From Sneathiella sp. HT1-7 (GTDB lineage: Bacteria > Pseudomonadota > Alphaproteobacteria > Sneathiellales > Sneathiellaceae): 64,000 bases of DNA. This document shows, piece after piece, positions 4,586-61,376 of the stretch. The stretch's first letter is position 1; each line of letters starts with the position of its first letter. Below the pieces are notes generated by a model, which worked only from the letters and a program-made list of their open reading frames with translations, searched no databases and had not been told where the DNA came from. A program made the position numbers and the translations under genes. Location of the stretch: positions 496,001 through 560,000 of the forward strand of contig NZ_JAJFZN010000001.1 in NCBI RefSeq assembly GCF_020731145.1, read 5' to 3'.

Positions 4586-5523
4586 GCGAAACAAAAGAAA
4601 AAAAAGGCTGGTTCAGTCGCCTGCGTGACGGACTAAAACGTTCCTCTTCTGCAATTTCAGGCGGGATCACCGATATCTTCACCAAGCGCAAGCTTGACGA
4701 TGACGTAATTGAGGAGTTGGAGGAACTACTGATTAGCGCGGACCTCGGCGTCGCAACAGCCGCCCGCATCTCGGCCAATATTGCTAAAACCCGATATGAC
4801 AAGGAAATCGCTCCTGAGGAAATCCGCGCTGCGCTTGCGGAAGAAGTCACAGCCATTCTTGATCCAGTGGCCGCGCCTTTCGTCCTTGATGAAAGCCGCA
4901 AGCCTCACGTTGTTTTGGTCGTTGGTGTCAACGGCTCCGGCAAGACAACAACTATCGGCAAGTTCGCCAAGCAATATAGGGCGGCAGGCAAGAAAGTAGT
5001 TCTCGCGGCCGGTGATACCTTCCGCGCGGCCGCGGTGGAACAACTTCAAATCTGGGGCCAGCGCACAGGGTGCGACGTGATCACCACGAAGGTGGGCGGC
5101 GATGCAGCAGGCCTTGCCTTTAGTGCGGTTGAAAAAGCGAAAGCAGATGGCGCTGATCTGTTACTGATCGATACTGCCGGAAGATTACAGAATAAATCCG
5201 ACCTGATGGCCGAGCTTGAAAAAATTCTTCGGGTTATAAAAAAGCTTGAACCCGATGCGCCGCATTCTTGTCTTCTCGTGCTGGATGCCACTACGGGCCA
5301 GAATGCTTTGAGCCAGGTGGAGATTTTTGGAAAAATCTGTAACGTTACCGGTCTGGTGATGACAAAACTTGATGGAACGGCACGGGGCGGTGTGCTGGTC
5401 GCGATCGCCGACAAATTCGGCCTGCCTGTTCATGCCATTGGCGTTGGCGAAAGCGAAGACGACCTGCAACCCTTCGCCGCAAATGATTTTGCCCGCGCCC
5501 TGTCAGGTGCCGGAGACACTTAA
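4582..5523 (+). CDS. ftsY: Signal recognition particle receptor FtsY
   Basis: FtsY is the membrane-associated SRP receptor GTPase. The 313-residue protein has a short, lysine-rich N-terminal A region rather than the long acidic one of E. coli, then the NG domain with P-loop GVNGSGKTTTIGK (about residue 115), DTFRAAAVEQL, DTAGRL and TKLDGTARGG. It starts in the mtaB stop (ATGA). yciB follows 16 nt later. Confidence 0.97.
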   Translation: MSETKEKKGWFSRLRDGLKRSSSAISGGITDIFTKRKLDDDVIEELEELLISADLGVATAARISANIAKTRYDKEIAPEEIRAALAEEVTAILDPVAAPFVLDESRKPHVVLVVGVNGSGKTTTIGKFAKQYRAAGKKVVLAAGDTFRAAAVEQLQIWGQRTGCDVITTKVGGDAAGLAFSAVEKAKADGADLLLIDTAGRLQNKSDLMAELEKILRVIKKLEPDAPHSCLLVLDATTGQNALSQVEIFGKICNVTGLVMTKLDGTARGGVLVAIADKFGLPVHAIGVGESEDDLQPFAANDFARALSGAGDT

Positions 5524-8340: not shown

Positions 8341-9729
8341 TCAATTTTTGTTCGCGCCGGAAAGGCTCTTTATTGCCTCCGCCGCGGCGGTGTTCACGGC
8401 ACTTCCTGTTTCTGTCACGGCCTGAAGCCGGGCCCATATATGGATTGCCTCGGCATTATTTCCGCTCGCGGCTTCGGCAACACCAAGATACCAAAGAGCC
8501 TGGGGATGATCCGGGTTTTGATCAAGAACCATTCGGTATAGTTCAACTGCAGAAGCAGGAGGTACACCCGTATCGCCTGCCGCCTGAACATGTGAGAGTG
8601 CTTCTGCCTGAAGCGCCTCTAAATCGTCAGGTTTCAAAGCGCGGGCTCGAGCGTAAGCATCGGCAGCACTCTTATAATTCTGAAGCGTGCGATAGGCCTG
8701 CCCTAGCCGCATAAGTCCTTCATAATCCGGAGCCTCTTCCATGCGCGTGGCCAGTCGATCCACCATTGAAGCTATCATTTCCTGTCGATCTTCTGGCGAC
8801 ATCTCTGCCGCTGCCTCAATATCCTCGGAACTCGGACCGGCTTGTTCTACCGCTGCGATCTTCTGATCGAAGAGATCACCAATATCAGTGTTGGTTTCTT
8901 CGGCGGTCTGTTCAATCCGTCGCGCGAGAACTGGCATGAAAGGGGCATCTGCCGGGCTTTCCTCATAAAGCGCGATCCAACTTTTGAGTGCGCCCGACGG
9001 ATCCCCAGCCTGCGCATCGCGAAGGGCAAGGTAATAACGCGCACCCGGATTATTGGGGTTCAGCGTCGCCGCAGCCTCGAACGCCTCTTCCGCGGCCGGC
9101 GTGATTGTCCCGTCTGATGCAAAATAGTAGTTTTCACCCGCCCCAATAAAAAGCTCTGCAGAGTTCGGAGCAAGCAGGGTCGCTTTCATATAAGTTTCCG
9201 CGGCTTCATTATATCGCTCCAGACGGGTTAACGTCCGGGCCAGCAGAACCCAGCCGTCGAGATTATCCGGCTGCGCCTTCAGCGCATCAACAAGCCGCTG
9301 GATCAAGACTTTAACGTCCTGTGTTTCAAGTGCCGCTCTCTCCGCCTCGATATTGCGGGCCATCAAAGGTCGGGCGGAGGTGTTCGGCGACCCAAGGTCG
9401 GCATAAAGCGCAAATGAAATGGCCGGGACTGAAATTGCAAGAACCAAAGCGATCGGCCAACCGACCTGCCGCCCCGAGTAGGAGGACACTTTTTCATCCA
9501 ACCGTCCCATACGGAGCATGCGCCGCTTGATTTCCACTCCCATGGACTCAGCCTCTGCCTTGCCAACAATACCGCGTGAGACATCGGACGCGAGTTCATC
9601 CAATTGCTGTTTGTAGACCTCAAGCCCCTGATCCGCATGATCGCGCAAATCGCGGCCTTCGCGCAGGAAAGGCCAGACAAGAATAATAATCACGACAAGC
9701 AGGATTATCGAAAAAACGATCCAGATCAT
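8341..9729 (-). CDS. ccmI: Cytochrome c maturation protein CcmI (TPR)
   Basis: CcmI is the apocytochrome c chaperone of the System I haem ligation complex. The 462-residue protein has an N-terminal membrane segment (MIWIVFSIILLVVIIILVWP), a cytoplasmic helical loop, a second membrane segment at about 90-112, and a periplasmic part rich in TPR repeats (for example ERYNEAAETYMKATLLAP, NYKSAADAYARARALKP). Its start overlaps the ccmH stop by 4 nt. It is the last gene of the ccm operon. Confidence 0.93.
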   Translation of the reverse strand: MIWIVFSIILLVVIIILVWPFLREGRDLRDHADQGLEVYKQQLDELASDVSRGIVGKAEAESMGVEIKRRMLRMGRLDEKVSSYSGRQVGWPIALVLAISVPAISFALYADLGSPNTSARPLMARNIEAERAALETQDVKVLIQRLVDALKAQPDNLDGWVLLARTLTRLERYNEAAETYMKATLLAPNSAELFIGAGENYYFASDGTITPAAEEAFEAAATLNPNNPGARYYLALRDAQAGDPSGALKSWIALYEESPADAPFMPVLARRIEQTAEETNTDIGDLFDQKIAAVEQAGPSSEDIEAAAEMSPEDRQEMIASMVDRLATRMEEAPDYEGLMRLGQAYRTLQNYKSAADAYARARALKPDDLEALQAEALSHVQAAGDTGVPPASAVELYRMVLDQNPDHPQALWYLGVAEAASGNNAEAIHIWARLQAVTETGSAVNTAAAEAIKSLSGANKN

Positions 9730-52005: not shown

Positions 52006-52065
52006 GAAAAAGCAATTAGGTCACAAAAAAGCCCCGCATTCCTGCAGGGTCTTTTTTGACAATGG
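52006..52065. repeat. Degenerate copy 1 of the tRNA-Gly 3'-flank/terminator
   Basis: This stretch matches the sequence that follows tRNA-Gly at 61087-61146: GAAAAAGCAA, a variable 6-9 nt, the terminator hairpin (one base changed), and a TGG that corresponds to the tRNA CCA end. The tRNA itself is missing. It lies 2 nt after the thioesterase stop, so it probably marks the original chromosomal left edge before insertions. Confidence 0.75.
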
Positions 52066-52258
52066 ACGATTTAATGCCTTGGCGCTAAACTGCCAAAGTG
52101 GCGAAACTGTGGGCCGCAATGCCCAAATGGTGGAGTTGGCCGAATGTTTCCGGAGGACACTCGATCTAAGATATTCTGGTTGGCCTAGAGACATTGTCAG
52201 GCTTCATGACGATTGAACTGTGTTGCGCCGCATAGCAAAAAGCGAAGAGAGAGTGAAA
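52066..52258. other. Possible gene remnant between terminator copy 1 and the amidohydrolase
   Basis: The first part contains an open frame ending in TGA at 52214-52216 whose 5' end is lost in the terminator repeat. It reads plausibly (ETVGRNAQMVELAECFRRTL) but matches nothing I know. It could be the tail of a gene cut by an insertion, or chance. Confidence 0.3.
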
Positions 52259-53137
52259 ATGCGGCGAATCGACACTCACCTGCACCTATGGGACACAACG
52301 CAGCTTGACTACCCTTTGTTTCAGAACGGTGCATTTCCCGAACTACCGGATACTTACCTGCTAGATGACGCGATTGCCGAGGCAGAGGGAACCGAAACCG
52401 ATTTCATCGTTATCCAAGCCGAAGTCGATCATGCGAATGACCCGGTCGAAGAGACTGCATGGCTCCAGAGAACCGCTGACGAGCACCCGAACGGCGACCG
52501 GATCACGGGCTTTATTGCGTACGCGGATCTTTCTCAGCCAGACGTCAAGGCACTTCTTGAACGGCACGCCCAGAACCCGATTTTTCGCGGTATTCGGCAG
52601 GAGATTTGGTGGCAAAAACCCTCCCCGCGCCCGGATATCCTGGAGGAGGATCTGCTGGCAAACCCTGATTGGCGCCGGGGTTTCACCGCGCTGGCCGATG
52701 TCAACGCAAGCTTCGATCTGACCTGCTGGCACTCTCAACTCAGCGCATTTGCAGCGTTCCTATTTGAACATCCCACCATACCAGTCATCGTCGACCATTT
52801 GGGCTCACCTATTGCAAATGACGATGGCGCACAGGACGTATGGCTTAATGGTATCAACGCGCTTGCCGCCTTGCCCAATACATTCATGAAGATCTCCGGC
52901 TTGTCTCAAGCGGATCCACGCTGGAGCATCGATAGCATAAGGCCTTTGGTTGATCAGGTCTTAGAAGCCTTCGGTCCGGAACGATGTATGCTCGGCAGTA
53001 ATTTTCCAATCGAGAAGCTAACGTCGACATATGAAATTGTTTGGGACACATATCGGGAAATTTTTTCTGAATTGACTTCTGAAGAAAAGGAAAACCTGCA
53101 CTTTGCAACGGCAAAGAGAGCTTATCGACTGGGATAG
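52259..53137 (+). CDS. Amidohydrolase-family protein (L-fuconolactonase/PDC-lactonase-like)
   Basis: The 292-residue TIM-barrel metal-dependent hydrolase starts with RRIDTHLHLWDTTQLDYP (HxH metal motif), and contains IVDHLGSP and MLGSNFPIEKL, which are family signatures. The substrate is probably a lactone or related carboxylate. I start at ATG 52259 after GAGAGAG, not the TTG at 52220. It lies between terminator copies 1 and 2, so it may be cargo of an earlier insertion, although its composition resembles the core genes. Confidence 0.85.
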   Translation: MRRIDTHLHLWDTTQLDYPLFQNGAFPELPDTYLLDDAIAEAEGTETDFIVIQAEVDHANDPVEETAWLQRTADEHPNGDRITGFIAYADLSQPDVKALLERHAQNPIFRGIRQEIWWQKPSPRPDILEEDLLANPDWRRGFTALADVNASFDLTCWHSQLSAFAAFLFEHPTIPVIVDHLGSPIANDDGAQDVWLNGINALAALPNTFMKISGLSQADPRWSIDSIRPLVDQVLEAFGPERCMLGSNFPIEKLTSTYEIVWDTYREIFSELTSEEKENLHFATAKRAYRLG

Positions 53138-53190
53138 GGTTAGTTCGTTAACCAGATTTAGGAGATTCTATATAGAAAAAGCAAATAGCC

Positions 53191-53278
53191 CACAAAAAAG
53201 CCCCGCATTCCTGCAGGGCCTTTTTTGAAAATTGGAGCGGGCGATGAGATTCGAACTCACGACCCTAACCTTGGCAAG
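53191..53278. repeat. Left attachment repeat (attL) with tRNA-Gly 3' fragment
   Basis: This is the left copy of the 88-bp direct repeat. It includes the tRNA terminator (53191-53228) and the 3' 46 nt of tRNA-Gly on the minus strand (CCA end at 53235-53233, breaking at the anticodon loop CTTGGCAAG, 53270-53278). After 53278 the sequence departs from the tRNA. Confidence 0.9.
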
Positions 53279-53345
53279 CTAGCAAAATAACCTTTAGGCA
53301 TTTGATTTGTAATTGCTTTTTCCTCTATTGAACACGGAGGAAACA

Positions 53346-54323
53346 ATGGCATCTATCAGAAAATTGCCCTCAGGAAAGTATTACTGCCAAGTCCGTCTGA
53401 AAGGCTCAAAACCAGTCTACAAGACATTCTCACAACTACAAGACGCAGAAAACTGGGCGAAGGAAAGAGAGAAAATTGCTCGAAGCAACGCATCCCTCTC
53501 AAATACTACATTAAAATTTGATTCCAAAGATACTCTAAGAGACGTCGGCTCTCGCTATTGCTCTATCGTCCTTAATGGTAAAGCATCTCAATATCAAACT
53601 TTGATGCGTGTTGAACGCATGGCCAAGTATTTTCCGCAACCGTTTGGCCAGATTAGCAAATGGAATGTGAACGACTACAGGCTTGCTCGATTGAAATCTG
53701 TGTCGCCCACAACTTGCCGAGACGAACTGGTCTTGCTGAGCAGACTGTTTAAGTGGATAAGCCGTGAACTTCTTCTTGATCTGCCCAATCCCTGCATAGA
53801 TATAGCTCTACCAAGATCGTCAAAGCCGAGAGACAAGGTGGTATCTCCGGAGGAAATGGAGATGCTACTTAAAGCAATGTCCCCTCGAATGGCTGTTATC
53901 ATTGAGCTTGCTTATGAGACTGCCATGAGGAGATCAGAAATACTCAAACTAACACCCTCCTGCTTGCACCTCGATAGACGCCTTCTCGATGTTATTGACG
54001 GCAAGACTGGTAGCCGCACAGTACCCCTTACAAGAAGGGCCGCAGAGCTTCTCTCAGGGGCTGTAAAGGCTTGTTCTAAGGATGATGCCCATATTTTCCA
54101 AGTATCCGCTTACGGAGTCTCTCAGGCCCTTAGAAGGGCAAGACAAAAGCTAGGATTATCTGATGACATACGTGTACACCAATTGAGGCATTCAAGAATT
54201 AGCATTGTAGCCCGTAAGGGCTTTAACAACGCTCAGATAATGGCGGTCTCTGGACATAAAGATGTAAGGTCAGTTCAACGCTACACCCACCTAAACGCCG
54301 TTGATGTAGTAGATTTGCTATGA
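53346..54323 (+). CDS. int: Tyrosine-type site-specific integrase
   Basis: The 325-residue protein has an N-terminal Arm-type DNA-binding part (MASIRKLPSGKYYCQVRLKG), a SAM-like core-binding domain (~60-160) and a catalytic domain with R195 (AMRRSEILKL), K220 (IDGKTGSRTVPL), H278-x-x-R281 (HQLRHS), H304 (SGHKD) and nucleophile Y313 (QRYTHL). All catalytic residues are present, so it should be active. The ATG at 53346 has CACGGAGGAAACA upstream. It sits 67 nt inside the left attachment repeat, as is typical for tRNA-targeting integrases. Confidence 0.96.
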   Translation: MASIRKLPSGKYYCQVRLKGSKPVYKTFSQLQDAENWAKEREKIARSNASLSNTTLKFDSKDTLRDVGSRYCSIVLNGKASQYQTLMRVERMAKYFPQPFGQISKWNVNDYRLARLKSVSPTTCRDELVLLSRLFKWISRELLLDLPNPCIDIALPRSSKPRDKVVSPEEMEMLLKAMSPRMAVIIELAYETAMRRSEILKLTPSCLHLDRRLLDVIDGKTGSRTVPLTRRAAELLSGAVKACSKDDAHIFQVSAYGVSQALRRARQKLGLSDDIRVHQLRHSRISIVARKGFNNAQIMAVSGHKDVRSVQRYTHLNAVDVVDLL

Positions 54324-54526: not shown

Positions 54527-56947
54527 ATGGAAAGAAGAGTTCTGAAAGTATTTTTGGGTTCGCCGGGTGACTTGCAGAAGGAACGAGAAAGGGCCCGTTC
54601 GATTGTTGAAGAAGAGAATAAAAATCATGCTTACAATCACGGATACCAAATTGAATTAGTGGGGTGGGAAGACACAGTAGCTCAAGCAAGGCGCGCTCAA
54701 GCGACGATAAACAGAGAACTTGATCAATGCGAGTACTTCATTGGAATGATGTGGCAAAAGTGGGGAACTGCACCTGGGGGTGAAGGTCATCCATATACAT
54801 CAGGATTTGAGGAAGAATTTCGGAGATCAATGGATAGAAAACGAGCGACTGAAAAGCCTGAAATTGCTTTGTTATTTAAAAAACCCACTGAAGAGTTATT
54901 GGCAGATCCGGGCCCCGAGATTACGAAGGTATTAAAATTCAAAAAAGAAATTGTAGATGCCAAAGAACTTACCTTTCAGGAGTTCGATAAACTCGACGAA
55001 TTCGCTACTAAGTTTCGTGCCATTATAAGCTTGATTCTAAACATGCAATTAGATGCTTCAAAAGCCGAAGATATTGTATCAGAGGAGTCTATAAAGGAAA
55101 CTTCAAATGATGGCTCCCAAAAAGATATTGCGCCTTCTACTACATCACTTTTTGATCCCAGCTCAATACACTTCATTGAATCCTTATTCGAAAATAGCGA
55201 GATTGATGCTACGTCAATAGCAAGGTTCCGCCTTATAGCAAATTCAATGCATAAATCCGGAAATGATGATATTTCGCTTGGCGTTCATGATTCCAATTTG
55301 ATTTATCGGAATAAAGACGCAATCACCCTAGAAAGCAGAGAAACTAAATTCCTTATTAAAACGGGTGTAAGCAATTTCCAAAGTGAAGTCGTACCCATAT
55401 GGTATTGGCTTTTTTCGACAACAGAAAGCCCGCAGTATGAAATTACTTTTAGAACATTATATGGTAGTAATCGTCATCGGGAAAATGCGTTAAAAATACT
55501 GCGGTTGTGCTCTTGGGATATTGCAGATATCAGTGAGTTATTTACCCGGAAATCCATAATCGAAATCTGGTTGAATAATAACACATCAAATGATTTACGT
55601 TTGGCAGCGTTTTCCTATTTACAAGAATGTGGCCGCGAAGAAGATTTGCCACAAATTTCGTCTTTCCATGACAGCTCTGAAACAAATATTTCAATTGCAG
55701 CAGTTAGCGCCACGATTGGTATACTATCAAAATTTAGCATTTCAGAGGCACTCGAATTTATTGCTACGCGGGAAGATGCAGATATATCTCCAGCGATAGC
55801 TCAAAAACTCCTGTCCAAGCCCAGTATGATTGAAACGACGCTTCTTAAGAATTGTCTATCAAACCAATCCACAGAGTTTTTGATTTTGGTGGCCAAAGAG
55901 CTCAATAAACGCGAAAAACTCTCATTAGACGACGCCAAATTACTTGGGGAGTCTGGCAATGCTCAAGTTAGACTCATTAGTACGCAAACATTTCAGAGGC
56001 ACAGAGATGAATTCTCTTTGTCCGACGCAAAAAAGATACTCGTCAAACCTACAAAAAACAGAACACTAATTTCATGGTTTTCTACTACTTCAATAGACCA
56101 CGACGGTGAAGCAGTTTATGATTCATATGAGATCGCAGTCTTTTGTGAACTGCCCGTAGAAGAACTCAGACAGAAAGTGAAGTCGGCTTCTATTTATAAC
56201 TCTAATGCACTTAAAGCATACTATACTCGTTACTTTTCTTCAGCGCGAAGCGAAATGATTAACAATTTAGAAGACAAATTTGTCTCGTATTTTGAAGATA
56301 AGCGCGAAAAAATTAGTGAACCTAATGTACCGCCGACCGACAGCCTTACTAATTTCCTTCGACTTAGTATGTTAAAATCGGTGCTTGATATTCTTTGTGA
56401 GAAAGGGGGAGTTAAGGACCTACAACTAGCCAGAAACCTGATCGACGAAAGCGAAATCCAGTTATCGAATACAATTGCCTCATTTTTAGCGAAACATGGC
56501 AGCTGGGAAGATGCTGAGCGAATTGCAAAATTGACTAACGATGCATCATTTAGCGGTGGATTACTACCTTCTCCAAATAAAATGAATGACTATAAGGAAA
56601 TTGCCACTGCTCTTTTGAAGCTTGGTGGTGAAAGGATCGCTGATTTATTCGCGCTCGATATCTCATCTTCTGTAAAAAAATGGATGATCCATCTTCTCTC
56701 CAAACCAAAATTCATTTCATTTGACGACAAACAAATATGTCAAATGCTAAGAAATGAAAGCGAGTATATTAGGCAAGCCGTCGCTTTTAAATCAATTTTA
56801 TGCTTAACGAAGTCAAGATTGGAAAAAATATTATACCTATACTATAAAGGGGAAGATAGTCACTATTATAATGCTATATTTTGGTTGGATTTAGGCATTA
56901 GCACCCCTTCTAAATTGGCAAAATCGATAGCTAGAAGTAAAATTTAG
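54527..56947 (+). CDS. DUF4062 (TIR-like) protein with helical-repeat C-terminus
   Basis: The 806-residue protein has an N-terminal DUF4062 domain (residues ~5-175): RVLKVFLGSPGDLQKERERA, WEDTVAQARRAQATINREL, CEYFIGMMWQKWGT and GFEEEFRRS. DUF4062 is a TIR/SLOG-like Rossmannoid domain usually found at the N-terminus of bacterial NACHT/STAND proteins. No P-loop is visible here; residues ~300-800 instead look like HEAT-type helical repeats (RLAAFSYLQECG, AQVRLISTQTFQRHRDEFSL). A sensor-effector role in phage defence is inferred from this layout and the island setting. The gene is strongly AT-rich, and its ribosome-binding site is weak. Confidence 0.8.
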   Translation: MERRVLKVFLGSPGDLQKERERARSIVEEENKNHAYNHGYQIELVGWEDTVAQARRAQATINRELDQCEYFIGMMWQKWGTAPGGEGHPYTSGFEEEFRRSMDRKRATEKPEIALLFKKPTEELLADPGPEITKVLKFKKEIVDAKELTFQEFDKLDEFATKFRAIISLILNMQLDASKAEDIVSEESIKETSNDGSQKDIAPSTTSLFDPSSIHFIESLFENSEIDATSIARFRLIANSMHKSGNDDISLGVHDSNLIYRNKDAITLESRETKFLIKTGVSNFQSEVVPIWYWLFSTTESPQYEITFRTLYGSNRHRENALKILRLCSWDIADISELFTRKSIIEIWLNNNTSNDLRLAAFSYLQECGREEDLPQISSFHDSSETNISIAAVSATIGILSKFSISEALEFIATREDADISPAIAQKLLSKPSMIETTLLKNCLSNQSTEFLILVAKELNKREKLSLDDAKLLGESGNAQVRLISTQTFQRHRDEFSLSDAKKILVKPTKNRTLISWFSTTSIDHDGEAVYDSYEIAVFCELPVEELRQKVKSASIYNSNALKAYYTRYFSSARSEMINNLEDKFVSYFEDKREKISEPNVPPTDSLTNFLRLSMLKSVLDILCEKGGVKDLQLARNLIDESEIQLSNTIASFLAKHGSWEDAERIAKLTNDASFSGGLLPSPNKMNDYKEIATALLKLGGERIADLFALDISSSVKKWMIHLLSKPKFISFDDKQICQMLRNESEYIRQAVAFKSILCLTKSRLEKILYLYYKGEDSHYYNAIFWLDLGISTPSKLAKSIARSKI

Positions 56948-57628
56948 CACAATTGAACAACCCGAAGTTAACGCATGAGTTTCAGAGCGACATAAAACAA
57001 ATTAACGTGAGTCCATTTATAAGGTACGGGTGATCAAGTTATCAAACCCCATGACATCTAAGCATATGAAGCTATTATTTTTTCCAGCTAAAGAGAAACT
57101 GGATTGCAATTTATGTAATTATTCAAACCAAAATGGCTAATTTCTGACATTTCCAGTTCCTAATTAGCATGGGATATATAGTCTGCAATTACTCCTACAT
57201 CACCCCCGTATAGGAGCGTTAGTAGGTAGTATTCTCAACCTTTATCTTTGCAATTAGGTGATACCGAATACCTACATTTTTGTTAGAAATTTTTTGGCTC
57301 GAATGAAGTTAGCTTGTATACCCCGTGCACCCCCGGGATACCCCCTCAACTAATAGAAAAAAATATTCTCAATGATGCCCATCATAACATTCTTTTTTAA
57401 CCGAATGACCTGACCCTAACTACGACTAGGTTAGGGTCATGCTTGCAGAATCAAACGATTAGGTTGAATTTACTCGTGTAATTTTGTCCATTGGTCAGAT
57501 AAGGTGCCAAGGCTACATGCAGAACTAAAGAAGTCTAAACGAACTGAAAATGAATTTGGGATACATATTGTGAGCATTTCTTTCAGAAAATTTGCTGCTA
57601 GAAGCCCACTTATGTGAAACCTGATAAT
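56948..57628. other. Long AT-rich non-coding gap within the element
   Basis: These 681 bp between two plus-strand cargo genes contain no convincing ORF. They hold a perfect inverted repeat at 57411-57439, C-runs near 57214 and 57324-57347 (CCCCGTGCACCCCCGGGATA), and the likely promoter of the following gene. A structured RNA or a regulatory site is possible, but I cannot name one. Confidence 0.5.
57411..57439. repeat. Perfect 10-bp inverted repeat
   Basis: TGACCCTAAC (57411-57420) and GTTAGGGTCA (57430-57439) are separated by 9 nt. The nonamer GACCCTAAC also occurs in the tRNA-Gly part of both attachment repeats (53261 and 61172 region), so the site may be recognised by an element-encoded recombination or regulatory protein. 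Confidence 0.6.
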
Positions 57629-59086
57629 ATGCGTGACAAGATATATTACTTTAAGACTGAATGGCTTCAGCCTGAATCTGCCGTTAGTACGTTAGTAGAT
57701 TGCACTGGTTTATCGCCTATAATTAACGGATCCAAAATCGGGATAAGTACAGCAGATAAAGTTCTTTCGAAACAAGGTCTCTCCCCATTGGCTATGGGCT
57801 ATGAGCAACCGATTAACCATCTGGACTTACGATCAACAATTCAGGGTCTTCTAGAGGTGACAGAAGACAACACAGACTTTCTTCGAAAACTTACTCCAGA
57901 AATAAAACCCCCTAAAGAATTACACAGAACTCAAGCTTTAGAGTCATTTGGACATTTGATATCCCTACTAAACCGTGTTTACTTAGAGCCGCATCCGGAA
58001 GCTGCCGCCGAATGCGGAGAAGAAGCATTAAGAATTTTGCTTTCATTCGTTCCGCAATTAGAATTTGCAACTCCAATTACTGTAGATTTAAAGCTACAGG
58101 AAAGTATATTTTCCTTTACTAAAATTGCTCTATTGATTGAGAAACTGGGCTTAGATGCGGTAAAAGGCAAATCTAAAACAGACGACGCGATGGCCGGGCT
58201 CAAACAAGCGTCACTCCAAATTCCCGACTATGTTGACGCGCTCACTCGCCTATATCCTATCATATTCACATTCCCATTCAAAAGAACTGGCTGTTCCTGG
58301 CATTTCTATTCAAGAGATCTTTTTGGCCTCCCTTATGATTTGACAACTAGTTTTTCTGACCAATTCACTTCTTTATCTACAATAAGAGCGTCAGTTCCAA
58401 ATCCCAATGGGTTAAGGGGATTCAAGCTACCTACAAAAAATGGAGTATGGCGAGTTTTAAGAGAAGCAGTAAATGCGGTTAACAATATTTTTTCGTTCAT
58501 CAATAACTTTACTAACTTTGTTGATTCTAGCGATTCAATTGATCTTATGCGGCAAAATAAATTTGAAATATCAATCCACTTTCTGTTTGCAGACCTACAA
58601 GCAATTGTAAATACCTCAAGCCCGCATAGTCGATTTGCTTTTACCCTCAATTTTTTTGACAGATTAGCTAATTTGTATCGCGGATACACTGGTGATCGCA
58701 CAAAAGATGAATCCGCCATTTCGCTACTGTTAATGTCTGAGCAGTTTGGGAAAAAGCTCGCTACGATGCTGTCAAAAAATTATTCAAGCTCTGACAGCGA
58801 ATTTGGCGAGGCATTGTCACGTTCTACAATAACCACGTATAGAAATATTAAAGACAAGCTATTAGATGATCTTGGCACGGAAAGTGCCGAAGAAAGAAGG
58901 GGCGAATATATCCGTATCTTAAGAAATCTGGCGCACGGGGGTTATCTCGAAACAAAGAAATATGACGATTATTTACTTACGAGCAGAATGGAACTCCCAG
59001 AAGACTTGGTTACCCTGCCGTGGTTATTAATGTTTGGAATGTGCTCTAATCCTGTTCAATTTTTCTCATTACTAGAAAGCGAATGA
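57629..59086 (+). CDS. Unknown protein with HEPN-like C-terminal motif
   Basis: I do not recognise this 485-residue protein. It is mostly helical and lacks signal peptide or membrane segments. Near the C-terminus it has EYIRILRNLAHGGYLE, where R-x6-H and the RNxxHG pattern resemble the catalytic motif of HEPN ribonucleases such as Abi-type toxins. The rest has no known domain. The start is uncertain: ATG at 57629 (used here) or GTG at 57614, both with weak ribosome-binding sites. It is AT-rich cargo between the DUF4062 gene and the convergent polymerase-like gene. Confidence 0.68.
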   Translation: MRDKIYYFKTEWLQPESAVSTLVDCTGLSPIINGSKIGISTADKVLSKQGLSPLAMGYEQPINHLDLRSTIQGLLEVTEDNTDFLRKLTPEIKPPKELHRTQALESFGHLISLLNRVYLEPHPEAAAECGEEALRILLSFVPQLEFATPITVDLKLQESIFSFTKIALLIEKLGLDAVKGKSKTDDAMAGLKQASLQIPDYVDALTRLYPIIFTFPFKRTGCSWHFYSRDLFGLPYDLTTSFSDQFTSLSTIRASVPNPNGLRGFKLPTKNGVWRVLREAVNAVNNIFSFINNFTNFVDSSDSIDLMRQNKFEISIHFLFADLQAIVNTSSPHSRFAFTLNFFDRLANLYRGYTGDRTKDESAISLLLMSEQFGKKLATMLSKNYSSSDSEFGEALSRSTITTYRNIKDKLLDDLGTESAEERRGEYIRILRNLAHGGYLETKKYDDYLLTSRMELPEDLVTLPWLLMFGMCSNPVQFFSLLESE

Positions 59087-59279: not shown

Positions 59280-60854
59280 TTATTCGTAACCATATAATCC
59301 ATGTACTTTCCGCCATTGCTCATCACGAATATGATACGTTCTATGCGTTTCCATATACGATTTCGTCTCGGCCTCTATATCTGACATATTGACCAAGGAA
59401 GGTCCATCATATCCTTCTGGCGGATCATATACTGCTTCATCTAAATCTATCTTACATTCCGTTCCTATAACTTCGCTGAATGACTCAGTCATGGCGTTGT
59501 GCAGTAATTTTTCTCCACCTCGACGTACAATGAAGGAGTCATGAATTGGAAGCGCTGTTATTGGTGGCGAATTGTCCAATAGTTTAATCATCACACGTTC
59601 CGCAATCTGAGAATCTAAATTCTGGGTTGCGCCCCAAGCACTTGAGAAAAAATCGTTTTCAATAGGCTCATGGAATTTTATTAAGTCACTCAACAAATCG
59701 GAATACGGTCTCCCCGTGAGTTCCTCAAATTGCCGTCGCCGAGATTTTATTTTTTGAGAAAGAGACATTTCACCCCAATCAACCGGCAAAGGGTCTGGAT
59801 CCAGATCAGGTCCAAAACGATGCCATTGTTTGGGATTTCTAGAGGAGGGATCACTATTAACAAGTTGATTGAAAGCTTTTTTAATTAATGGCCTGAGACT
59901 AACGTCCCATCCCTCCAGTATATAAGAATCTTCAGGAGGCTCCCTATCCACAAACGCATAAAGCATATGGGGTTGGAGGGTTGCATAATCCATCTCCCGA
60001 GTAACACACCCTTCTATCTCGATAAATTTTCTGTATTCACTAGGCAATCCCTGCCACCAGCCTCCGTAAAACCTTCCTCCATTACTGAAGCTACCTAAAG
60101 AGAAAATTCGTCGAAGGGATCTATTTGAGAACTCAAGAGGCTCTCTGAACTCATCATTATCAGTTGTCTCGACTATCCCCTGCTCCCCCACACGAGATAG
60201 ACGTCTTCTTATCAGTTCGAAATCGTCATCAGAGATAGACAGATTGATCAAGCTGGATTGTAAATTCTCATTTATTCTCCTGATATTTTTTCGAGAAGCT
60301 TCTAAGTCAAACTTTCCCGGTTTAGGAAATGAAATGAAATTTTTGTTTTCTGTATCCTTGACAAAAATCACTGGGGCGTTGGGATCGGTCAATATGCAAG
60401 CCCAATTTACCTCAAATTCATCAAATAGAGTTTGGAGGCCGGGCGCAGCTCGCATTCGCGACGAAATATCACTGAACCCTTGTTTAGCAACATGATTTTC
60501 AATTAGCTGTTGGTGCTCCAGAAAATCGATAACTCGTAGAAATATTCTTTCAGATATGAAGGGGCTACTATTTTCATAGTCCCAGTAAGAACCCCCTTCA
60601 ATAAAATATTTTTTCGACCGGCTATAACCGATATATAGTTCTGGATCTGCACTCCAAGCGGATGCTAAATCTGCCAGTACAATCTCAAAGTGACGAAAAT
60701 AGCTTTCCGCCTCAGACTCTGACAATCCTCTGATTCCCTGTTCTTTACGGGATTCCAAATACGTATTTTTAATATCGGAAACAAATTGAGTAAACTGTTC
60801 GGATTTAACAACTAGGTCTGTCCTATTACGCCTTGAGTTCCCCAAACTATCCAT
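59280..60854 (-). CDS. Family-A-polymerase-like protein of a mobile element (TV-Pol-like)
   Basis: The 524-residue protein carries, in order, the polymerase A palm signatures: SNGGRFYGGWWQGLPSEYRK (~256-275, equivalent to the GR...QN-IP...R segment of Pol I), motif A MDYATLQPHMLYA (Asp at ~289), a motif-B-like helix LRPLIKKAFNQLVNS (~320-334), LDSQIAERVMIKLLDN and motif C LPIHDSFIV (~436-444, HDS as in T7 RNA polymerase). No 3'-5' exonuclease domain is seen; the N-terminal ~200 residues are unassigned. It may replicate the element or act as a primase-polymerase. The ATG at 60854 has AGGTGAGG 9 nt upstream; the GTG at 60869 overlaps it. Confidence 0.75.
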   Translation of the reverse strand: MDSLGNSRRNRTDLVVKSEQFTQFVSDIKNTYLESRKEQGIRGLSESEAESYFRHFEIVLADLASAWSADPELYIGYSRSKKYFIEGGSYWDYENSSPFISERIFLRVIDFLEHQQLIENHVAKQGFSDISSRMRAAPGLQTLFDEFEVNWACILTDPNAPVIFVKDTENKNFISFPKPGKFDLEASRKNIRRINENLQSSLINLSISDDDFELIRRRLSRVGEQGIVETTDNDEFREPLEFSNRSLRRIFSLGSFSNGGRFYGGWWQGLPSEYRKFIEIEGCVTREMDYATLQPHMLYAFVDREPPEDSYILEGWDVSLRPLIKKAFNQLVNSDPSSRNPKQWHRFGPDLDPDPLPVDWGEMSLSQKIKSRRRQFEELTGRPYSDLLSDLIKFHEPIENDFFSSAWGATQNLDSQIAERVMIKLLDNSPPITALPIHDSFIVRRGGEKLLHNAMTESFSEVIGTECKIDLDEAVYDPPEGYDGPSLVNMSDIEAETKSYMETHRTYHIRDEQWRKVHGLYGYE

Positions 60855-60957
60855 AGCAGCTAGCCTCACCTAAGTTGGATTACGCTAGTTAATCCCAGTC
60901 ATTCCAGTTGTTTGAACATAACCAAATCCGTTTCTATGTGCAAAGCACGTACATTAT

Positions 60958-61021
60958 GAGCGGGCGTAGCTCAGGGGTAGAGCTATTTCATGCCACAGCT
61001 TGCTGTGAGCACCTTGCCAAG
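60958..61021 (+). pseudogene. Partial tRNA-Gly 5' half in inverted orientation
   Basis: Plus-strand bases 60958-60983 are identical to the first 26 nt of the tRNA-Gly gene region (starting GAGCGGGCGTAGCTC). They are followed by 26 unrelated nt, including the small hairpin CACAG-CTTG-CTGTG, and then by ACCTTGCCAAG (61011-61021), the anticodon-loop core. It cannot fold as a tRNA. It faces the intact tRNA-Gly and lies inside the element's right end. Confidence 0.75.
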
Positions 61022-61023
61022 CA

Positions 61024-61067
61024 GATGTGTACAGAAGTGTGTACAGTGCCTTGAATTGTGCACAGAA
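61024..61067. repeat. Three short repeats near the right attachment site
   Basis: TGTGTACAGA, TGTGTACAGT and TGTGCACAGA occur within about 45 bp next to the CTTGCCAAG core. Their spacing and position suit arm-type binding sites for an integrase or excisionase. Confidence 0.45.
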
Positions 61068-61101
61068 ACTGCTAGGATTCTCGAAGGAAAAAGCAAACAA
61101 T

Positions 61102-61137
61102 CACAAAAAAGCCCCGCATTCCTGCAGGGCCTTTTTT
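61102..61137 (-). terminator. tRNA-Gly terminator
   Basis: On the minus strand GCCCTGC-AGGAAT-GCGGGGC forms a 7-bp stem (one G-U pair) followed by TTTTTT, a few bases after the tRNA CCA end. Copies occur at 53191-53228 and, degenerate, at 52022-52058. Confidence 0.85.
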
Positions 61138-61189
61138 GAAAATTGGAGCGGGCGATGAGATTCGAACTCACGACCCTAACCTTGGCAAG
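61102..61189. repeat. Right attachment repeat (attR)
   Basis: This is identical over 88 bp to 53191-53278. It covers the terminator and the 3' part of the functional tRNA-Gly. Identity ends at the anticodon loop (CTTGGCAAG, 61181-61189), which places the crossover in or left of that loop. Confidence 0.92.
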
Positions 61190-61218
61190 GTTATGCTCTA
61201 CCCCTGAGCTACGCCCGC
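61144..61218 (-). tRNA. tRNA-Gly (anticodon GCC)
   Basis: The minus strand reads GCGGGCGTAGCTCAGGGG at the 5' end and closes with CGCCCGC-T-CCA. The acceptor stem GCGGGCG/CGCCCGC is perfect, the anticodon stem is TAACC/GGTTA around loop TTGCCAA (anticodon GCC), and the T loop contains GTTCGAATC. CCA is encoded. It is the integration target of the element on its 3' side and has been restored by the element's copy. Confidence 0.97.
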
Positions 61219-61248
61219 TCGAGCGTGCAACATCCGTTGCGAGGCGGG

Positions 61249-61276
61249 ATAATACGTAAATAGCCCCTGAATGCAA
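61249..61276 (-). promoter_or_regulatory. Promoter of tRNA-Gly
   Basis: On the minus strand TTGCAT (61276-61271) and TATTAT (61254-61249) are 16 bp apart, about 30 nt upstream of the tRNA 5' end, followed by a GC-rich discriminator CCCGCC of the kind found at stringently controlled stable-RNA promoters. Confidence 0.6.
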
Positions 61277-61376
61277 GCGCGTTTTGTCAAAAAATGCGGC
61301 TTTTGTGAATTCTTTATTTCCTCTGGCGGATGGAGCCGCTAATTTTCTCGCATCCAAACCGGAGAGAGGAGAGAGA

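Follow-up and report, generated by a model that had tools for sequence, protein, structure and literature searches.

A probable TV-Pol-like family-A polymerase in a small tRNA-integrated element of Sneathiella sp. HT1-7

INTRODUCTION

Of the TV-Pols, described by Iyer, Abhiman and Aravind in 2008, some have a lambda-type integrase, a resolvase or a transposase nearby, and some have an extra N-terminal domain (PMC2579912). The TV-PolN domain was predicted to be all-helical, and in another subset a D5-type helicase is fused to the polymerase or encoded next to it, without being required of all members (PMC2579912). Phage polymerases of the divPolA2 type are described in a second paper, in the excerpt of which considered here the phages carry a second, regular polymerase, and a role as RNA polymerase or in transcription is raised for the phage relatives (PMC11348598). 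A third system is that of the CCPol-MP or PolA-SSB primases of SCCmec; according to the excerpts considered, CCPol is an A-family polymerase that primes when joined to the protein MP (PMC7581432, PMC10061031).

We analysed a stretch of 64,000 nucleotides of Sneathiella sp. HT1-7 (hereafter the window), in which an earlier note had proposed, from the letters alone, a family-A polymerase core in the gene of a mobile element. The protein most likely is an element primase-polymerase of a TV-Pol-like family that includes divPolA2, and is of a kind already known. What is added is that an unnamed family (phrog_4756, divPolA2) is now tied to bounded integrative elements that have defined ends and carry an integrase and defence-like genes.

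RESULTS

The polymerase gene and its protein family

The gene was considered in two forms:

59280..60854, minus strand: family-A type polymerase gene, 524 aa, ATG start
59280..60869, minus strand: the same gene in a longer GTG form, 529 aa

The ORF at 59280-60854 is real, as the earlier note had it, and its ATG at 60854 is preferred over the GTG at 60869 because AGGTGAGG lies 9 nt upstream of the ATG. Residue numbers below are those of the 529-aa GTG form.

The protein had no match in Pfam, NCBIfam or PADLOC (E up to 10). In PHROGs it matched phrog_4756 ('unknown function', E 2e-36), besides two rows at chance level, and the same phrog was matched by all 26 members of the first family alignment. 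These 26 members had no Pfam family in common and no polymerase family among their matches. Nuclease families were likewise absent from their Pfam matches at E <= 0.1, where five rows were single chance-level matches; the exonuclease domain said to be missing was thus not found. A single-protein sequence search of the PDB returned no polymerase, its best rows being designed TIM barrels, and was set aside. With the family profile (A1), the sole match among PDB sequences was AdcR (E 0.39).

Predicted fold

An AlphaFold2 model built from 23 aligned sequences had a pLDDT of 87.4 and a pTM of 0.88. In the PDB, Foldseek returned 78 matches at E <= 0.001; KlenTaq (4.1e-5) and the apicoplast polymerase headed these, and every one of the best 50 of the 78 was a Pol I-type polymerase or Pol theta/nu. 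The whole-chain TM-scores among the matches listed were low (TMq 0.20-0.30). By VIA-align, the model matched 9cay_A with Z 12.3 (255 residues, 4.1 A), followed by KlenTaq (11.6), T7 DNA polymerase (11.5) and T7 RNA polymerase (1h38; 10.8), and mitochondrial RNA polymerase was also among the matches. The aligned ranges mostly started at residue 16-22 or 159-187 and ended at 475-483. Among viral models (BFVD), the best match was an uncharacterised Aeromonas phage protein (3.2e-21), and a 'DNA polymerase' of Rheinheimera phage Barba31A was also present (3e-18).

The structure prediction and structural search suggested in the earlier note therefore returned Pol I-type matches with Z up to 12.3, with the motif Asp residues aligned by profile. 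The model, the Foldseek and VIA matches, and an hhalign alignment (E 8.6e-5, probability 60%) of the family to ten sequences of Pol I type agree, and the prediction that the ORF has a family-A palm/fingers core is well supported.

Active-site residues

Four segments were placed by profile alignment and conservation:

60030..60080, minus strand: conserved-Arg segment GGRFYG..R280, aligned with TGRL..R641 of Pol I
59958..59996, minus strand: motif A with D294; Q299 is at the steric-gate position
59856..59894, minus strand: fingers motif R326xxxK330xxxNxxxN338
59535..59543, minus strand: motif C, H443-D444-S445

In the hhalign alignment R280, D294, R326, K330, H443 and D444 were paired with R641, D656, R705, K709, H832 and D833 of the host Pol I, R641 being invariant in the ten Pol I-type sequences. 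The segments thus follow each other in the order read in the earlier note. Its motif B needs correction: an equivalent is present, but it begins at R326xxxK330 and continues into the following residues, so that KKAFNQL is only its second half. The spacing R-x3-K-x3-N-x3-N equals R-x3-K-x3-F-x3-Y of the host Pol I, and is also that of T7 DNA polymerase (R-x3-K-x3-Y-x3-Y) and T7 RNA polymerase (R-x3-K-x3-M-x3-Y).

Conservation was counted over 47 loci with one protein each (the best-scoring where there were several pieces). R266, R280 and D294 were each kept in 47/47, K330 in 46/47 (one gap), R326 in 45/47 (one gap, one Pro) and D314 in 44/47, while D444 was present in all 45 homologues having a residue there. 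Conservation of this extent exceeds chance.

In Pol I, a Glu at the gate position excludes ribonucleotides. This Glu (E661 in the host Pol I, E480 in T7 DNA polymerase) is invariant in the ten Pol I-type sequences and occurred in 0/47 homologues, where the position held His (25), Gln (11), Ala (3), Asn (2), Ser (2), or Gly, Leu, Met and Phe (one each). The residue after the HD of motif C was Ser in 41 homologues, Ala in three and Gly in one, with two gaps; T7 RNA polymerase has HDS, and Pol I and T7 DNA polymerase have HDE. As the catalytic residues are kept, the gate Glu is absent and motif C is mostly HDS, the protein is likely an active polymerase whose choice of sugar is relaxed or altered. 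The absent Glu and the HDS motif would fit a primase or an RNA-capable enzyme, and the former leads to a concrete prediction, namely the use of ribonucleotides.

N-terminal domain

Ahead of the core lies one further predicted domain:

60390..60800, minus strand: N-terminal winged-helix-like domain, about residues 24-160 (weak structure and profile matches)

The N-terminal half, modelled alone from 41 sequences, had a pLDDT of 89.9. Its Foldseek matches were weak and of the Fur, PadR and MarR winged-helix types (best E 3.9e-3, none at 0.001). With VIA, a ribosomal protein came first (Z 6.4), the best DNA-binding row had Z 6.2 with further ribosomal proteins intermixed, and T7 RNA polymerase scored Z 5.4. 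The N-terminal profile gave six matches among PDB sequences (E 0.12-0.71), all MarR- or PadR-type by name or relatedness, and the 41 N-terminal pieces had only single, chance-level matches in Pfam. Several weak results agree here, none being significant alone, and suggest that this part is probably a winged-helix DNA-binding domain.

Comparison with TV-Pol, divPolA2 and CCPol

The protein resembles TV-Pols in its minimal family-A palm and fingers with two Asp, a conserved Arg and RxxxK, and in having no nuclease. An extra N-terminal domain, and an integrase or resolvase nearby (34/47 loci), are each features of a subset of TV-Pols as well. The hairpin Arg ahead of motif A in TV-Pols has counterparts in R266 and R280 (47/47), and the RxxxK and conserved Asp of the TV-Pol fingers in R326, K330 and D314, D314 being assumed to be the Asp of that paper. 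Helices 189-205 and 214-225 lie ahead of the hairpin in the model and may be compared with the two-helix thumb of TV-Pols. Unlike the D5-helicase subset, the window element has no recognised helicase, and the N-terminal domain of its polymerase is predicted to be winged-helix-like, unlike the all-helical TV-PolN.

The genome of Ma-LMM01, a TV-Pol-bearing phage, was searched in four overlapping pieces, and the family HMM had no match below E 0.1 among its ORFs. MAP_030 of this phage aligns with the family at only E 0.092; its motif residues are similar to those of the window polymerase (His at D+5, Asn at K+8, HDG). From these motifs and a neighbouring transposase, our guess is that MAP_030 may be the TV-Pol of Ma-LMM01. 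The protein may be a TV-Pol, as raised in the earlier note: the core features and setting that were tested agree, with no significant sequence match in Ma-LMM01.

The A1 profile matches the divPolA2 protein AUR84708 (E 1.4e-41), and the family includes the phage divPolA2 proteins; both have the palm and a non-canonical N-terminal domain. Those proteins belong to tailed-phage genomes with a second polymerase, in the excerpt considered, whereas the window gene is in a bacterial integrative element. CCPol, as far as its excerpts describe it, is likewise an A-family polymerase of a mobile element, without editing exonuclease and with a predicted primase role; unlike the window element, where neither was recognised, its operon has an SSB-like partner and a helicase. 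Palm, fingers, and motif order and spacing are shared with DNA polymerase I and T7 DNA polymerase, from which the protein differs in having no exonuclease found and in the replacement of the gate Glu and of the Glu following HD in motif C.

The integrative element

The polymerase gene lies inside a 7.9-kb element at a tRNA-Gly gene, bounded by 88-bp direct repeats, with these further features:

53191..53278, no strand: left copy of the attachment repeat, 88 nt, 100% identical to the right copy
61102..61189, no strand: right copy of the attachment repeat, holding the tRNA-Gly 3' part and a terminator-like hairpin
61144..61218, minus strand: intact target gene, tRNA-Gly(gcc) (tRNA detection, Rfam)
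53313..54323, plus strand: tyrosine recombinase (integrase), PF00589 E 7.4e-27, likely start ATG 53346
54527..56947, plus strand: DUF4062 protein, 806 aa, probable cargo; first 188 aa like PADLOC PDC-S60, E 1.1e-23
57614..59086, plus strand: orphan protein, 490 aa, probable cargo, no family found

The G+C content is 0.38-0.40 within the element and about 0.53 outside. In one of seven congener stretches (genome G007, locus L156) the site is empty, the flanks being joined with one repeat copy; identity is 90.6% for the left flank (52056-53278) and 86% for the right. The repeats at tRNA-Gly and this empty site establish that the polymerase belongs to an element, as the earlier note had supposed. 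The terminator-like hairpin of the right repeat was the one found there, as against 0.7 in shuffles. A promoter search of 60800-61300 gave no match, and Rfam at the element end gave the tRNA and one row far under its cut-off.

None of the four long genes of the element is of a phage structural family (Pfam, PHROGs). Pfam recognised no helicase or SSB, and the four proteins lack a Walker A motif; nor was an origin, an iteron or, within the window, a small gene adjoining the polymerase found. Searches of plasmids and of 59 other genomes gave no match to the orphan. Given its PDC-S60-like N-terminus, the DUF4062 gene is possibly a defence gene. A relative of it, near full-length in two pieces and 31% identical, is present on a plasmid of Asticcacaulis excentricus.

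In another congener (G015), about 3 kb at the same tRNA-Gly (L153, 3339-6484) looks like a decayed remnant of the element. Its right end retains 87 nt of the element's right end at 87% identity, no integrase or polymerase was seen in it, and it has one 733-aa ORF without a Pfam family.

Relatives and their neighbourhoods

Close relatives are present in Marivibrio halodurans (L016, 48% identity), Devosia (L017, 45%) and a Rhodospirillaceae MAG (L018, 37%). The profile matched in 30/385 genomes of the class sample and the single protein in 6/115 of the near-relative sample, the window's genome and a number of partial matches being counted in both. Scans of viral contigs gave two loci and then none; tblastn gave eight phage and two plasmid records. 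Plasmid searches with two other family members gave five and three records, in none of which a protein from the TV-Pol paper could be identified.

A recombinase lies within 8 kb at 34/47 polymerase loci (tyrosine integrase at 32, serine recombinase at 15). The profiles used for this count were themselves derived from recombinases at the loci, and Pfam confirmed ten of the cases. The remaining 13 loci have none within 8 kb; for seven of them the sequence ends within 8 kb on one side, which is not so for the other six. Few other neighbour genes recur among the loci listed. In Marivibrio, the element is 4.2 kb long and occupies the same tRNA-Gly with the same neighbour genes and 68-nt repeats (91% identical). 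It holds the polymerase, a 221-aa ORF, the integrase and a doubtful 107-aa ORF overlapping the tRNA-copy region. From this small element and the recurrence beside a recombinase, the polymerase is probably a core gene of these elements rather than cargo.

Eight proteins were chosen for a Pfam scan, seven polymerase neighbours and the 733-aa ORF of the remnant. Five had a match: TIR (L019), WD40 repeats, NACHT (L023; 25.3 bits, just under the cut-off of 26.7), ResIII (L104) and N6-methylase with HSDR (L100). The other three had none; no Pfam match was found for the 221-aa neighbour in Marivibrio and a 235-aa one in L060.

Across 30 loci, L022 and L024 having been dropped as near-identical to L025, polymerase distances correlated with integrase distances at r 0.16 (p 0.01); for the 14 integrases of the short type, r was 0.37 (p 0.0035). 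As this correlation is weak, integrases are exchanged.

An inverted copy of the target tRNA 5' part

Repeat search and shuffles pointed to two pieces of the target tRNA in inverted form:

60958..60983, plus strand: inverted copy of tRNA-Gly nt 1-24 with 2 nt upstream
61011..61021, plus strand: inverted copy of tRNA-Gly nt 28-38, overlapping nt 30, where the direct repeat starts

The copy of nt 1-24 is inside the element, 160 nt past the tRNA 3' end, with the nt 28-38 piece nearer the tRNA. The Marivibrio element has the same arrangement (nt 1-26 at 9623-9648, nt 28-38 at 9576-9586). In L092, at tRNA-Val(gac), nt 9-22 are exact at 5251-5264 (22 nt with one mismatch) and nt 25-35 are at 5188-5198. 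In L023, at tRNA-Val(tac), nt 1-16 (18 nt with two upstream) are at 8897-8914, with no further 11-nt piece nearby. The copy is therefore in two pieces, reaching the crossover region, in three of four cases, and three different tRNA species are involved. The longest exact matches within the tRNA were 24 nt (window), 26 (Marivibrio), 14 (L092) and 16 (L023), compared with at most 10-12 nt in 500 shuffles each.

Among the 30 tRNA genes of the 47 loci, not all of which are element sites, four had an inverted copy of at least 14 nt downstream and none had one of at least 10 nt upstream. The exact tRNA-Gly inverted form was present in one of 385 genomes, the window's own. The copy is thus neither common at the tRNA loci seen nor universal in the family. 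In all four copy-bearing elements the tRNA is at the integrase-distal end; L104 has the same layout and no inverted copy. The remnant L153 keeps the copy at 87% though it has no integrase and no polymerase. G177 has an integrase 50% identical to that of the window; the A1 profile detected no polymerase there, and the sole tRNA of the 19.5 kb stretch is about 8 kb away. Folded as RNA, the strand next to the copy did no better than shuffles (z -0.46). A narrow literature search for an inverted tRNA copy at attP found no paper, from which we do not conclude that the feature is unpublished.

A bolder reading, which we think has little chance of being right, is that the int + Pol elements are a class of their own, free of helicases, with an RNA polymerase-like active site and a working tRNA-derived structure at the attachment end. 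In this structure the target 5' part up to the crossover would stand inverted beside the direct 3' part, would serve as a second inverted core site, a foldable integrase end or a polymerase start site, and would be retuned at each new tRNA.

DISCUSSION

We favour, with some reserve, the view that the polymerase is the replication enzyme of this small tRNA-integrated element, an element-specific primase-polymerase. What the computation supports are the fold and motifs, the limits of the element, the empty site and the recurrent integrase/resolvase neighbourhood. The integrase would cut the element out between its 88-bp repeats, and the polymerase, with its probable winged helix and minimal palm/fingers core lacking an exonuclease, would bind element DNA and both start and extend strands on it. 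The element would be copied as a circle or made double-stranded and would then reintegrate, with a helicase, if any, supplied by the host. We infer the winged helix to be the DNA-binding part, the start to be primer-independent, rNTPs to be used and the excised form to be replicated.

An element primase-polymerase is suggested because the gate Glu is missing in 47/47, HDS is present in 41/45, the gene persists in the 4.2-kb element and the neighbours are recombinases. Priming by an A-family polymerase also has a precedent in CCPol, which primes when joined to MP in the excerpts considered. The requirement of CCPol for a partner protein, as described in those excerpts, and the window element's lack of a recognised helicase or SSB cast doubt on priming. 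The function may not be replication at all, since divPolA2 phages have another polymerase in the excerpt considered. The 13/47 loci without a recombinase in 8 kb, the low TMq, the failure to find an origin and the weak polymerase-integrase correlation also speak against the favoured view.

The same gate position (Glu missing in 47/47) and HDS, as in T7 RNA polymerase, would suit an RNA polymerase or transcription enzyme of the element that does not copy DNA. T7 and mitochondrial RNA polymerases are among the structure matches, and the divPolA2 authors raise this for the phage relatives in the excerpt considered (PMC11348598). We regard it as unlikely: His or Gln predominates at the gate, where T7 RNA polymerase has Gly, the N-terminal part is not clearly RNA polymerase-like (T7 Z 5.4), and DNA polymerases are slightly ahead of RNA polymerases (Z 12.3 vs 10.8). 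Defence-like genes do occur in these elements (DUF4062/PDC-S60, TIR, NACHT below cut-off, ResIII, N6-methylase with HSDR), and the polymerase could in the same way be a cargo, accessory or defence enzyme. This is improbable in our judgement, as the polymerase recurs beside a recombinase while most other genes vary, and is kept in the Marivibrio element of 4.2 kb, in which no defence family turned up.

Ordinary integration by tyrosine recombinases requires no DNA synthesis. This textbook point tells against a polymerase that repairs or completes integration or excision intermediates, by second-strand or gap synthesis, instead of replicating the element. We hold such a role to be very unlikely, even though the polymerase accompanies both tyrosine and serine recombinases, no helicase was seen in the element, and the inverted tRNA copy could give foldable single-stranded ends. 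Three things deserve further attention: the residue at the steric gate, the inverted copy of the tRNA, and the element of 4.2 kb, which has little beyond two genes and would make the element-primase idea of 2008 testable (PMC2579912).

Some minor observations were also made. A palindrome at 57412-57441, in the 666-nt gap between the DUF4062 and orphan genes, has tRNA-Gly nt 37-47 as its right arm, and may be a site, or else the relic of another insertion. The own genome has a second polymerase (L060, 8021-13906), beside a tRNA-Ser and with an integrase and a serine resolvase; it overlaps the 235-aa gene by 4 nt. In L116 (G128:C14), two equal-scoring polymerase copies are located about 9 kb apart, with a serine recombinase near each and an additional fragment, and are possibly a tandem duplication.
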